A DNA stretch of 64,000 nucleotides from Leucobacter sp. L43. GTDB lineage: Bacteria > Actinomycetota > Actinomycetes > Actinomycetales > Microbacteriaceae. The translations under genes and the position numbers were made by a program. Position 1 is the stretch's first letter. Every line of letters starts with the position of its first letter. The stretch lies in NCBI RefSeq assembly GCF_016597785.1, contig NZ_JAENJG010000002.1, positions 310,001-374,000 of the forward strand, written 5' to 3'. Under the pieces are notes generated by a model, which worked only from the letters and a program-made list of their open reading frames with translations, did not search any database and was not told the DNA's origin. This document shows positions 39,217-42,851 of the stretch, in pieces.

Positions 39217-39938
39217 GCAGCCACCAGCCGTTTCGAGACCTGCACGTTCCCCGTACCGCTCGACAGGGCCTCGACGAGGGCGTCGCCGGCGGCATGCAGC
39301 GCCTCGTCGGAGACGGGCGCGAGGGCGTCGAGGATGAAGAGTGCCGTGCGGGTGTCGTTGGAGAGGCTCGTGCGTCGGCCCTGTCGCCAGTTCCAGCGAC
39401 GGCAGGTCACACCAGCGGTGTCGCACCACACGACCTCGCCCGGATCCGGGTGTTCGAGGATCGTCTCGCCATTCACGACGGTGTCGAACGTTTCCGTGCC
39501 CGCGGCGCGCATCAGCCTCGCCGGCCCCTGGTAACGGTCGAGATCCTCTCCGCCGAGCGGAATCTGATGCAAGACCGAGATCGCGTTGGAGATGTCGGTG
39601 AGTGCATTCACGCGAGGCAGGGCGAGCTCGGCGCGGCGTGTGAGTGCCTCGAGGCTGTTTCTGGTGCGCTGCGGTTTCGCACCGAAGGCGCGGTACGCGT
39701 CTCTCCAGGACGCGACGTGCGGCAGCTCATCTGCCGAGCGTTCTGCGAGCAGATCCCGCGCACGCATCTCGGCCGCAGACACGAGTGCGTCGACGGCATC
39801 AGCGTTGTGGTCGAACGCGTCTGCGGCACTGCCGTCGACCACGAGCAGCAGCGCACGGTAGTCCGGCCGCAGGAGAAGCACGTCGGGATCGACGGCGCAC
39901 GCGTGCAGGAATGCGGCGGCGTTCGTCGTCTCAGTCAT
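39213..39938 (-). CDS. B3/B4 tRNA-binding domain protein (stand-alone PheRS-beta editing-like domain)
   Basis: This 241-residue protein contains a B3/B4 domain, the module that in phenylalanyl-tRNA synthetase beta edits tyrosyl-tRNA(Phe). Landmarks are WRDAYRAFGAKPQRTRNSLEAL, LPRVNALTDISNAISV, and VVWCDTAGVTCRRWNWRQG near the C-terminus. Stand-alone versions may hydrolyse mischarged aminoacyl-tRNA or bind amino acids; which is unknown. AGGAG precedes the ATG; it overlaps the regulator stop by 8 nt. Confidence 0.85.
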   Translation of the reverse strand: MTETTNAAAFLHACAVDPDVLLLRPDYRALLLVVDGSAADAFDHNADAVDALVSAAEMRARDLLAERSADELPHVASWRDAYRAFGAKPQRTRNSLEALTRRAELALPRVNALTDISNAISVLHQIPLGGEDLDRYQGPARLMRAAGTETFDTVVNGETILEHPDPGEVVWCDTAGVTCRRWNWRQGRRTSLSNDTRTALFILDALAPVSDEALHAAGDALVEALSSGTGNVQVSKRLVAA

Positions 39939-40536
39939 GAGCGGACTCCTCTCGGTGTGCGGATCCGACACCTGGTTCGAATACCGTGAGCGAGAACCGG
40001 GTGGTAGCGCTCGTCGAATTCACGTAGGCGTGGACCACGTCACCTCGGAAGGTCAGAGCATCCCCTGTCGCCAGGTCGTACGTGATCCCCTCCGCTTCGA
40101 CGGCGAGTGCACCTTCTTGCACGTGCAGCAACTCGCGGGTTCCCGCCGTGTGGGCTTCGCTGTCGTGGCGCTCATGCGGCGCCAGCGTCCAATCCCAGAG
40201 TTCGATGACGTCCGGCGGCTCCGTGCCGGCGACGAGCACCGCCCGGCCGCCGGATTCGCCGTTCCACAGCACCGCGCCCTGGCCGTTGCGCGTGTGTCTC
40301 GCCGTGCGCGGAGACGGGGGTTCGACGAGGTCTGGCAGGCCAACGCCGAGCGCGTCCGACAAGCGCAGCAGTGTGCCGATACTGGGGTTCACCGCACCCT
40401 GTTCGACGTTCACGAGCATACGACGGCTCACTCCGGCGAACTCGGCGAGCTGATCGAGGGTCCAGCTCCGACCGTTTCGCTCCTGCTTGACGCGCGCACC
40501 GATCGCCCGCGCCAAGGACTCTGCAGTCACATCCAT
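39931..40536 (-). CDS. XRE regulator with C-terminal cupin sensor
   Basis: This 201-residue regulator has an N-terminal HTH (TLDQLAEFAGVSRRMLVNVEQGAVNPS) given in part as EFAGVSRRMLVNVEQG, and a C-terminal cupin (about 105-195) with HERHDSEAHTAG and GDALTFRGDVVHAY. Cupin-XRE proteins sense small metabolites, often amino acids. It leads the operon. TAAGAT lies 7 nt before ATG 40536, and TGCCC-N5-GGGCA lies further upstream. Confidence 0.9.
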   Translation of the reverse strand: MDVTAESLARAIGARVKQERNGRSWTLDQLAEFAGVSRRMLVNVEQGAVNPSIGTLLRLSDALGVGLPDLVEPPSPRTARHTRNGQGAVLWNGESGGRAVLVAGTEPPDVIELWDWTLAPHERHDSEAHTAGTRELLHVQEGALAVEAEGITYDLATGDALTFRGDVVHAYVNSTSATTRFSLTVFEPGVGSAHREESAHD

Positions 40537-40550
40537 ACAGTGCATCTTAG

Positions 40551-40693: not shown

Positions 40694-41167
40694 ATGCGCA
40701 GATTTCTGAGCCTGGCGGCGGTCGCCTGCCTGGCACTCCTCACGGGCTGTTCATCCACGATCCCCGCCGATCCGGAGGGGACGCTCGAGCGCGCCACCAA
40801 CGGAACGCTCCGCGTCGGCGTCTCCGACAGTCCGCCCTGGGTCGAGACGTTCGACGATGCGAGCCCGGCCGGCACCGAACCGAAACTTGTGCAGAAGTTC
40901 GCCGAGCGCATCGATGCCGATATCGAATGGACGGAGAACGGCGAGGAGCAGCTGTTCAAGGCCCTCGAACGCGGCGAACTCGATATCGTCATCGGTGGAC
41001 TGACCGACGAAACTCCGTGGATCGATTTCGGGGCTCTCACGGTTCCCTATGCTGAGCAAGAGCGCGACGGCATCGCTGAGAAGCACGTGATGGCCGTTCG
41101 CATGGGGGAGAACGCGCTGCTCGTGGCGCTCGAGGAGTTCCTGCTGGTCGAGGGGGCGACATCGTGA
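40694..41167 (+). CDS. One-lobe SBP-family lipoprotein linked to a CDF transporter
   Basis: This 157-residue protein resembles lobe I of amino-acid-type solute-binding proteins. The lipobox is LLTGC (C19). After LRVGVSDSPPW and GELDIVIGGLTDETPW it runs directly from TVPYAEQERD to a KHVMAVRMGENALLVALEEFL segment, which looks like the return strand from lobe II. About 90 residues of lobe II are missing, with no frameshift. TATGGT (40683-40688) lies 5 nt before the ATG. Its stop overlaps the CDF start. Confidence 0.75.
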   Translation: MRRFLSLAAVACLALLTGCSSTIPADPEGTLERATNGTLRVGVSDSPPWVETFDDASPAGTEPKLVQKFAERIDADIEWTENGEEQLFKALERGELDIVIGGLTDETPWIDFGALTVPYAEQERDGIAEKHVMAVRMGENALLVALEEFLLVEGATS

Positions 41168-42162
41168 CGACGCACTTCGGGCGCACCGAGCTTCCTCCGG
41201 CGCAGGAGGCCGCACTTCGTCGTGCGATCCGCTTCGAGTGGTACACGCTGGCATTCCTCGTGGTCGCGATCACCCTCGTGTTCCTCGTCATGGGGAGCTC
41301 GCAGGCGATGAAGGCGGCCTGGATCGAAGATCTCCTATCGCTCGCTCCACCCATCGCGTTTCTGCTCGCAGTGCGCATCGTGAACAAGCGCCCGACGGAG
41401 AAGTACCCGTACGGATTCCACCGCAGCGTCGGCGTCGCCCATCTCGTCGCCGGCGTCGCGCTGTTCGCGATGGGAGCCTTTCTCATCGTCGACTCGCTGA
41501 CCGGCCTGGTCAGCGGGGAGCATCCTCCCATCGGCACGATCGTGCTGTTCGGCCAGCCGATCTGGCTCGGATGGCTCATGATGGCCGTGATGGCGCTCAC
41601 CATTCCGCTTCCGATCTACTTCGGCCGCGTGAAAATGAAGCTCGCCCGAGAACTGCACGACAAAGTGCTCTACGCCGATGCCGACATGAACAAGGCGGAT
41701 TGGATGACCGCTGCGGGGTCCATCGTGGGGGTCGCCGGCATCGGGATCGGCCTATGGTGGGCGGACGCGGCGGCCGCGCTCTTCATCGCCGGCAGCATTC
41801 TCTGGGACGGCATGAAGAACCTGCGGGCCGCGATCACCGACTTGATGGACACGCGGGCGACCACCTTCGACGACGACGAGCCGCATCCGGTCGCCCAGAA
41901 AGTCGACGCGTACCTGCGAGGCCTTCCGTGGACGAGCGAGGTGGGGTCCCGAGTGCGCGATCAGGGACATGTGTTCCACGTCGAAGCATTCATCGTGCCC
42001 CAGCCGGACGAGTCGCCCACGCTGCGCCAGCTGATGGAGGCGCGGGACGGGTGCATCGACATCGACTGGAAGGTGCAAGACATCGTGCTCGTTCCCATCG
42101 ACGAGCTCCCCGAAGAAGTCGGCGGTTCGCGCGACGTGCGCCAATCCGAGCGCAACAAGTGA
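41164..42162 (+). CDS. Cation diffusion facilitator-family transporter, atypical metal site
   Basis: This is a 332-residue CDF protein with about six TM helices and a C-terminal cytoplasmic domain (DQGHVFHVEAFIVP). The GTG start overlaps the lipoprotein stop. At the canonical metal-site positions, TM2 reads IEDLLSL and TM5 reads DMNKAD, where YiiP-type proteins have D-x3-D and H-x3-D. By eye this suggests Glu/Ser and Met/Asp instead. The transported ion therefore cannot be predicted. Its stop overlaps the pentapeptide gene (GTGA). Confidence 0.85.
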   Translation: MTTHFGRTELPPAQEAALRRAIRFEWYTLAFLVVAITLVFLVMGSSQAMKAAWIEDLLSLAPPIAFLLAVRIVNKRPTEKYPYGFHRSVGVAHLVAGVALFAMGAFLIVDSLTGLVSGEHPPIGTIVLFGQPIWLGWLMMAVMALTIPLPIYFGRVKMKLARELHDKVLYADADMNKADWMTAAGSIVGVAGIGIGLWWADAAAALFIAGSILWDGMKNLRAAITDLMDTRATTFDDDEPHPVAQKVDAYLRGLPWTSEVGSRVRDQGHVFHVEAFIVPQPDESPTLRQLMEARDGCIDIDWKVQDIVLVPIDELPEEVGGSRDVRQSERNK

Positions 42163-42851
42163 GCGCGCGTCGAGGGCCGGGTGAGCGGCCCGCACGTCGC
42201 TCCCAGACCGCCTCACCTCGAATCGCCGACGTCGTACTGAGTCATCTCGTCGACGCCGATGCGGAGCACATCGTCGCTCGGGGTGCATACGAGGCCAGCC
42301 GCTACGAGCGCGCTGATCTCTCGGGTCGCGACCTCACCGGTGTCACGTTCACCGAGTGCGAGTTCGACGGGCTCGAAGCTCACGAGACCCAGTTGCTGGG
42401 AGCGCGCGTCATCGAGTCCCGAATTCAGCGCGCGAATGCGCCGGTGCTGCGGGCCGGACGCACGACGTGGCGTGAGGTTCGCATTTCGAACTCACGGTTC
42501 GGCGCGGTCGAGATGTTCGACTCTGATCTCGAGAGCTTGCACATCTCGGAGAGCAAGCTCTCGTTCGTCAATCTGCGGGCCTCGAGGTTGCGCGACGTGC
42601 AGTTCGAGCAGTGCGTCATCGACGAACTCGACCTGGCGGAAGCGCGGGCCGAGCGCATTGCGTTCACGGGATGCTCGGTGCGCTCCCTCTGCCTCGACCA
42701 CGCGCAACTGCGCGATGTCGACCTTCGCGAACTCGATCTCAGCAGTGTCAGCGGCGTCGAATCGATGCGCGGCACCATCATCTCCTTCACCCAGGCGGTC
42801 GACCTGACGAGCGCATTCGCTCAGCACCTCGGCATCACCATCGCAGACTGA
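42159..42851 (+). CDS. Pentapeptide-repeat protein
   Basis: This 230-residue protein starts at GTG 42159, overlapping the CDF stop. After a basic N-terminal segment, about residues 50-200 are pentapeptide-like repeats (A/S-D-L/F-x-x type: ERADLSGRDLTGVTFTECEF; then SFVNLRASRLRDVQFEQC), predicting a right-handed quadrilateral beta-helix. Such proteins can mimic DNA or scaffold partners. Its role beside the CDF transporter is unknown. Confidence 0.85.
   Translation: MSARRGPGERPARRSQTASPRIADVVLSHLVDADAEHIVARGAYEASRYERADLSGRDLTGVTFTECEFDGLEAHETQLLGARVIESRIQRANAPVLRAGRTTWREVRISNSRFGAVEMFDSDLESLHISESKLSFVNLRASRLRDVQFEQCVIDELDLAEARAERIAFTGCSVRSLCLDHAQLRDVDLRELDLSSVSGVESMRGTIISFTQAVDLTSAFAQHLGITIAD

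Follow-up and report, generated by a model that had tools for sequence, protein, structure and literature searches.

Transporters of the CDF family, among them YiiP/FieF and the ZnT proteins, have in common a six-helix fold and a cytoplasmic ferredoxin-like domain. To our knowledge, CDF proteins are stand-alone homodimers, and the literature that we searched, which covers only a minority of subscription journals, yielded no description of a CDF with a binding protein as its partner. In the excerpts available from a survey of the family, which do not list all 18 clades, the named clade quartets are HD-HD, ND-DD, DD-DD, DD-HD, EN-HD and HH-DH (PMC5703985), none of which contains the Met that is present in the site described below.

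Family-3 binding proteins (SBPs), such as HisJ, LAO, ArgBP and cyclohexadienyl dehydratase, share their lobe I fold and close on a ligand with two lobes. Lobe I is capable of folding alone when cut at the same place as in the protein reported here, as in domain 1 of TmArgBP (7a99, 6y16, 6gpc) and domain A of LAO (6xks), which are laboratory dissections. A natural single-domain SBP is also on record, RmSBP of Rhodothermus marinus; as far as the accessible part of its description goes, its function is open, it is similar to the C-terminal domain of a different class of SBPs, and its gene lies near that of a chemotaxis receptor (PMC10805632).

Here, we describe a natural single-lobe SBP that differs from the dissected domains in having a lipid anchor and a transporter partner, and from RmSBP, as partially described, in domain type and context, since it corresponds to the N-terminal lobe I and its neighbor is a CDF. 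It is encoded in Leucobacter sp. L43, within a stretch of 64,000 nucleotides that was analyzed as a whole (hereafter the window; positions count from its first letter). Three genes follow each other:

40694..41167, + strand: gene 1, one-lobe SBP lipoprotein; 157 aa, 139 aa when mature, lipobox Cys codon at 40748
41164..42162, + strand: gene 2, CDF-fold transporter with a non-canonical substrate site; 332 aa, 4-nt overlap with gene 1
42159..42851, + strand: gene 3, pentapeptide-repeat protein; 230 aa, overlaps the CDF stop, not counted in the module

An earlier note on this DNA had described the three genes as overlapping end to start through ATGA and GTGA. The overlaps are there, each 4 nt long; both junctions read GTGA in the window sequence and neither reads ATGA. 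With moderate confidence, we propose a two-gene module made up of genes 1 and 2, in which a CDF-fold exporter is served by a dedicated lipoprotein acting as an accessory or gating subunit.

The Lipoprotein Is a Half-Size Binding Protein

The product of gene 1 matches Pfam SBP_bac_3 (PF00497) with 37.5 bits against a cut-off of 26.4, and it displays a lipobox, LTGC, that ends at Cys19 (read from the sequence). Lobe II is absent, the mature protein having 139 residues vs. 212-217 in two-lobe homologues. The lobe-I-only lipoprotein recognized in the earlier note is thus confirmed, although the missing part amounts to about 73-78 residues and not to the 90 or so given there. The direct passage to the return segment without a frameshift, also claimed, is equally clear, as the chain resumes in frame at HVMAVxxGEN. 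When 24 relatives were combined into a profile, it matched lobe I of cyclohexadienyl dehydratases and amino-acid SBPs, as well as the isolated domain 1 of TmArgBP. Prediction of the lipoprotein alone, which the note had recommended, yields what is predicted to be an autonomous fold: the AlphaFold2 model of the mature protein (64 sequences) has a pLDDT of 90.6 and a pTM of 0.84. The top four Foldseek matches of this model are all structures of TmArgBP domain 1 that was isolated by engineering, with 7a99_B (E 6.7e-10) in the lead. When superposed with VIA-align, the model is as close to TmArgBP 4prs_B (Z 17.7, rmsd 2.3, 126 residues) as to 7a99_A (Z 17.4, rmsd 2.7, 127 residues), the two being tied. 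By these profile and fold matches, the lipoprotein consists of lobe I alone, with its two crossing segments joined directly.

Two short patches of the protein are almost unchanging:

40748..40789, + strand: juxtamembrane segment C-x4-PxDP-x2-TL, mature residues 1-14
41105..41113, + strand: GEN motif on the return segment, mature residues 120-122

In alignments that begin at the start codon, the juxtamembrane segment has the same Cys, first Pro and Asp in 24/24 and 18/18 rows, the 18 rows including both one-lobe and two-lobe forms. We cite these alignments since our 71-row SBP alignment was cut at the juxtamembrane motif, where invariance of the three residues would be by construction. In the GEN motif, G120-E121 is found in all 71 rows and N122 in 70 (60/60 one-lobe and 10/11 two-lobe).

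In contrast to family-3 SBPs, the lipoprotein has no lobe II, no carboxylate-binding Arg and no recurrent ABC permease/ATPase neighbor. Because lobe II is gone, it cannot close on a ligand, and it is best read as no longer being a Venus flytrap. As the chief alternative, which we regard as possible but unlikely, the single lobe would still bind a small ligand, at modest affinity and releasing it quickly, and would serve the transporter as a sensor or by supplying or accepting its substrate. In favor of this, many type II SBPs make almost all of their ligand contacts with one lobe, mostly the discontinuous one, according to the portion available of one study (PMC10601554), and an excerpt of another reports that a Trp variant of isolated TmArgBP domain 1, the closest solved structure to the lipoprotein by Foldseek, binds arginine at about 3 uM (PMC7589609). 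Two alignment columns, however, speak against a ligand site of this kind. W31 is relaxed in the one-lobe forms, being Trp in 11/11 two-lobe vs. 33/60 one-lobe rows (Fisher p 0.005, uncorrected for kinship), with an aromatic residue in 44 of the 60. The segment around it lies at the edge of the cleft and is the one that bears the ligand-stacking aromatics in family-3 SBPs. At the second column, identified by profile alignment to AncCDT-1, the lipoprotein has Trp91 in place of an Arg that binds the α-carboxylate of the ligand in family-3 SBPs; this column is Trp in 59/60 one-lobe and 6/11 two-lobe rows, and Arg in 0/71.

The Lipoprotein and CDF Genes Are Kept Together

A threshold of E < 1e-90 defines a CDF subfamily that is present in 30 of 199 related genomes, window included. 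A one-lobe SBP gene is found upstream of the CDF in 26 of these 30 relative loci (it is absent at L031, L032, L035 and L036). When named genomes were scanned, at least 485 relatives were detected, of which we kept the best 80, these being the nearest and hence biased to the window's kind. As many as 78 of these best 80 of at least 485 loci have a one-lobe SBP just before the CDF (exceptions, L057 and L076), and the linkage is therefore far beyond chance. Adding ten loci from a phylum search and nine from plasmids to the 30 relative and 80 named loci gave a pool of 129, with 127 distinct CDFs: 106 accompanied by a one-lobe SBP, 11 by a two-lobe SBP and eight by none, while the remaining two are interrupted frames with a one-lobe SBP. 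In 118 of the 121 SBP-bearing loci, the CDF has an in-frame start available with a 4-nt overlap onto the SBP stop; overlaps of 4 nt are common between bacterial genes.

For 10 distinct one-lobe pairs, dN/dS ranges from 0.03 to 0.31 (one further pair is saturated and one identical). The one-lobe SBP is under purifying selection where measured, and this, together with the linkage in 78 of the best 80 loci, makes it a stable, selected state rather than a product of decay. Many soil and marine bacteria have retained the pair, suggesting that the half protein is dedicated to this transporter as its partner. Some lineages nevertheless do without the partner: for eight of the 127 distinct CDFs, the stretch examined contains no SBP gene. 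Distribution is patchy: the SBP profile, scored alone, is found in 23/198 genomes of the order, and the CDF subfamily in at least 11/396 genomes of a phylum sample and at least 15/394 of a class sample, which are lower bounds because five candidates per genome were scored.

Within 4 kb on each side of the pair in the 80 named loci there is no conserved third gene, nor any gene family beyond the pair, ABC permeases and ATPases included, that exceeds 10 of the 80; the top cluster, leaving aside the pair and antisense frames, occurs in 10. In 16 of the 80 named loci, a set apart from the window, Rfam at gathering thresholds detected two tRNAs and no other family, riboswitches included, and no shared motif in 105 upstream regions rose above five shuffles.

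The earlier note had counted the pentapeptide gene as the third member of an operon. While relatives of its product are present in 79 of the 199 related genomes, window included, none is beside the CDF in the other 29 of the 30 relative loci (flanks ≤1.5 kb) or near it in the 80 named loci (flanks up to 4 kb). Hence, in the survey of linkage that the note had called for, the lipoprotein-CDF pair is kept and the pentapeptide gene is not kept alongside. Being adjacent to the CDF in this genome only among the loci examined, it is ruled out as a third operon member, and we left it out of the module because its linkage is not conserved. Among about 53 genomes of the window's genus, the pentapeptide protein is found in 21 and the CDF in 16, and the window's genome is the only one with both (Fisher p 0.0016, uncorrected for kinship). 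On the other side of the pair, an XRE-cupin regulator gene (39931-40545 of the window) is divergent to the operon and has no match in the 80 named loci.

A CDF Fold with an Altered Substrate Site

The product of gene 2 matches PF01545 (Cation_efflux) with 72.3 bits against a cut-off of 26.6; three other PF01545 proteins are encoded in the window's genome. Its model (pLDDT 90.4) displays a YiiP-like fold, with six TM helices and a cytoplasmic domain, and can be superposed on YiiP 5vrf_A (VIA-align Z 20.0, rmsd 3.9, 270 residues) and on human ZnT7 8j7v_B (Z 21.6). MamM and MamB are matched by the CDF C-terminal domain at a Z of about 10. CdfX of Cupriavidus, compared by its description in the part of the source at hand, was rejected as a relative because it lacks the cytoplasmic domain (PMC11580412). 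Three features set the window's protein apart:

41326..41340, + strand: TM2 site E55/S59, at the TM2 Asp pair of YiiP (profile alignment)
41686..41700, + strand: TM5 site M175/D179, at the TM5 His/Asp pair of YiiP (profile alignment)
41515..41565, + strand: TM3-TM4 loop, residues 118-134, predicted β-hairpin, longer than that of YiiP

The profile alignment to YiiP PDB chains, in which the second TM2 Asp of YiiP is D51, mutated in 8f6f, thus returns exactly the E/S and M/D positions that had been read by eye in the earlier note. The canonical site A quartet, (D or H)-x3-D in TM2 and H-x3-D in TM5, is absent from the CDF. Where YiiP and the CDF family have D or H/D plus H/D, the window's subfamily has E/S(G,A,T) plus M/D(N), together with the longer TM3-TM4 hairpin and the linked lipoprotein. 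Across 74 rows, E55 and M175 are invariant, whereas positions 59 (66 S, five G, two A, one T) and 179 (70 D, four N) vary. D56, R87, D172, W180, D201 and D215 are invariant too. Judging by these alignments, the putative substrate site is altered but constrained, since E55, M175 and the other residues are invariant although non-canonical. As a default guess, the substrate is a cation of a kind that the Zn-type quartet does not hold, with export as the presumed direction of transport.

Absence of the canonical quartet in all 74 rows, the drift at positions 59 and 179, and a score of 78.5 bits, below the superfamily cut-off of 82.35 for NCBIfam TIGR01297, might alternatively mean that the CDF no longer transports and is a receptor or signaling membrane protein, with the SBP lobe as its sensor part. 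We find this improbable. E55, D56, D172, M175, D201 and D215 are invariant in or at membrane helices, as expected of a working site, while conservation is poor (0.60) in the cytoplasmic domain, the part that a receptor would need, and none of the gene families beyond the pair, which are limited to 10 of the 80 named loci at most, offers a recurrent partner.

The CDF of Leucobacter chromiiresistens is the closest to that of the window among the named matches listed (88% identity). Within the genus, 16 genomes have the CDF. Those of the window, L008 and L009 are 87-88% identical and close to Agrococcus and Microbacterium forms; L008 and L009 were left out of the CDF tree. The window's CDF shares 49-56% identity with the other 13, and the 11 of these that were included in the tree fall on a separate branch with few others.

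A Possible Accessory Subunit

If genes 1 and 2 do encode transporter and subunit, the lipoprotein would sit on the outer face of the same membrane, beside the CDF with its altered substrate site. It would most likely dock on the transporter via the juxtamembrane PxDP segment and the GEN edge, and most likely act as an accessory or gating subunit rather than as a ligand-trapping receptor. This reading accommodates the 118/121 overlaps, the low dN/dS, two discrete length groups (see below), the pLDDT of 90.6 and the invariant patches of the lipoprotein. On the CDF, loops 43-50 and 195-199 and the TM3-TM4 loop are presumably outside, by the usual CDF topology. The first two are among the most conserved parts of the protein (0.88 and 0.82, compared with 0.84 for TM5 and 0.60 for the cytoplasmic domain). 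Conservation of the PxDP and GEN patches and of the outer loops, as opposed to the relaxed W31, fits docking better than ligand trapping, but does not prove contact. There are also arguments against a subunit. The conserved outer loops are short and may only reflect the CDF fold, the TM3-TM4 loop is only average (0.70), the SBP is absent with 8/127 CDFs, 4-nt overlaps are commonplace, and 44/60 one-lobe rows are still aromatic at W31. The TM3-TM4 loop includes an EHP motif, and its H120 is present in 109 of the 117 SBP-associated CDFs and in four of the eight that lack an SBP. Three of the latter (L031, L032 and L035, related to one another) have a four-residue TM3-TM4 insertion. Loss of the EHP motif upon loss of the SBP is suggestive only, as the eight SBP-less CDFs include near relatives.

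The lipoprotein might instead be a chaperone for assembly or stability of the CDF dimer, with no role in transport. The overlapping linkage and the small invariant patches that have been retained would suit a chaperone, nothing speaks directly against it, and all present evidence is common to chaperone and subunit; we consider it rather unlikely, a little more so than a receptor. A decayed or mis-assembled SBP linked by chance is very improbable: two-lobe homologues exist and the gene has been lost at some loci, but the same length and linkage recur in more than 100 distinct loci, with dN/dS well below 1 and a confidently predicted autonomous fold. Truncation or a pseudogene can be ruled out by the 78/80 linkage, the grouping of lengths and the dN/dS values, an error common to all relatives not being credible. 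For the subunit, a role in gating or in assembly, and physical docking on the CDF, are what we infer.

Two-Lobe, One-Lobe and SBP-Less Forms

The mature lengths of the SBPs, set by the juxtamembrane motif, fall into two groups with none between: 110 values of 129-158 residues and 11 of 212-217 (the window is counted twice; L186 and the contig-edge fragment L029, which have no motif, were left out). Nine loci from other classes of the phylum have a two-lobe SBP (212-217 mature residues) with the same CDF. A search for more two-lobe members in the classes of three two-lobe genomes yielded 4/24, 1/39 and 1/149 genomes, none of them new to the set. Within the window's class, L186, from another family, is two-lobed as read from its sequence, where no lipobox Cys is seen, and L178 and L182, from a third family, are one-lobed. 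Outside Actinomycetota, where we sampled plasmid records and one viral-contig scan, all three states are found. Two loci on Sulfitobacter plasmids are two-lobed; three Sphingobium loci and one of S. pontiacus, all on plasmids, are one-lobed, their SBPs being annotated as hypothetical or enoyl-CoA hydratase where annotated; and the CDF has no SBP on a Variovorax plasmid and on the Sphingobium plasmid L164. Homologues with a second lobe, which the earlier note had considered a sign that the window's protein is truncated, do therefore exist in distant loci, but they do not make it a clear truncation, since the one-lobe form is stable and selected.

Because canonical-CDF outgroups were saturated, what can be said of changes in lobe number rests on unrooted ingroup trees. 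In these, a branch with 100/93 support separates the seven alphaproteobacterial rows from all others, and one-lobe and two-lobe forms are found on both sides of it. Changes between one and two lobes number at least two (bootstrap range 2-2), and a grouping of all two-lobe rows is weakly rejected (AU p 0.032 with 65 rows, 0.030 with 70). The SBP-less rows require at least five changes on well-supported branches. Family-3 SBPs ordinarily have two lobes, so that two losses of lobe II would be the simplest account, although the root is not fixed and the alphaproteobacterial branches are long. We infer that lobe II was lost rather than gained. The ancestor would then be a two-lobe family-3 SBP linked by then to this CDF, and lobe II would have been lost in Actinomycetes and again in some Alphaproteobacteria, and Venus-flytrap closure with it.

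In a more general form, which we put forward tentatively, a CDF subfamily in at least two phyla depends on an ABC-derived lipoprotein subunit that was cut to one lobe at least twice and dropped several times, making up a series from flytrap to non-closing regulator. Such a series, with two lobes, one or none on one transporter, would be a natural experiment on what the lobes of binding proteins are for. A conserved CDF partner would give access to how CDF activity is gated from outside, and the Glu/Met site is a new test of how CDFs choose their cation.

The module may have moved between lineages. The plasmid CDFs of L150 (Variovorax from linuron-contaminated soil) and L154 (Arthrobacter) cluster on the window's branch, which points towards horizontal transfer. 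In the IMG/VR contig L189 (2366-6872), the SBP-CDF pair is about 1.3 kb from a frame that by eye resembles a large serine recombinase, so that the pair can apparently border a prophage or another kind of mobile element. In Sulfitobacter indolifex (L149, 476-7915), the pair is preceded by genes for a response regulator and an ATP-binding protein, perhaps a sensor kinase, and followed by an MFS gene, a metal-sensing repressor gene and a HupE/UreJ gene. On two Sphingobium plasmids (L163, 3418-4979; L164, 3375-4936), a second annotated CDF gene and a gene for an NAD(P)H-dependent oxidoreductase are convergent to the odd CDF.
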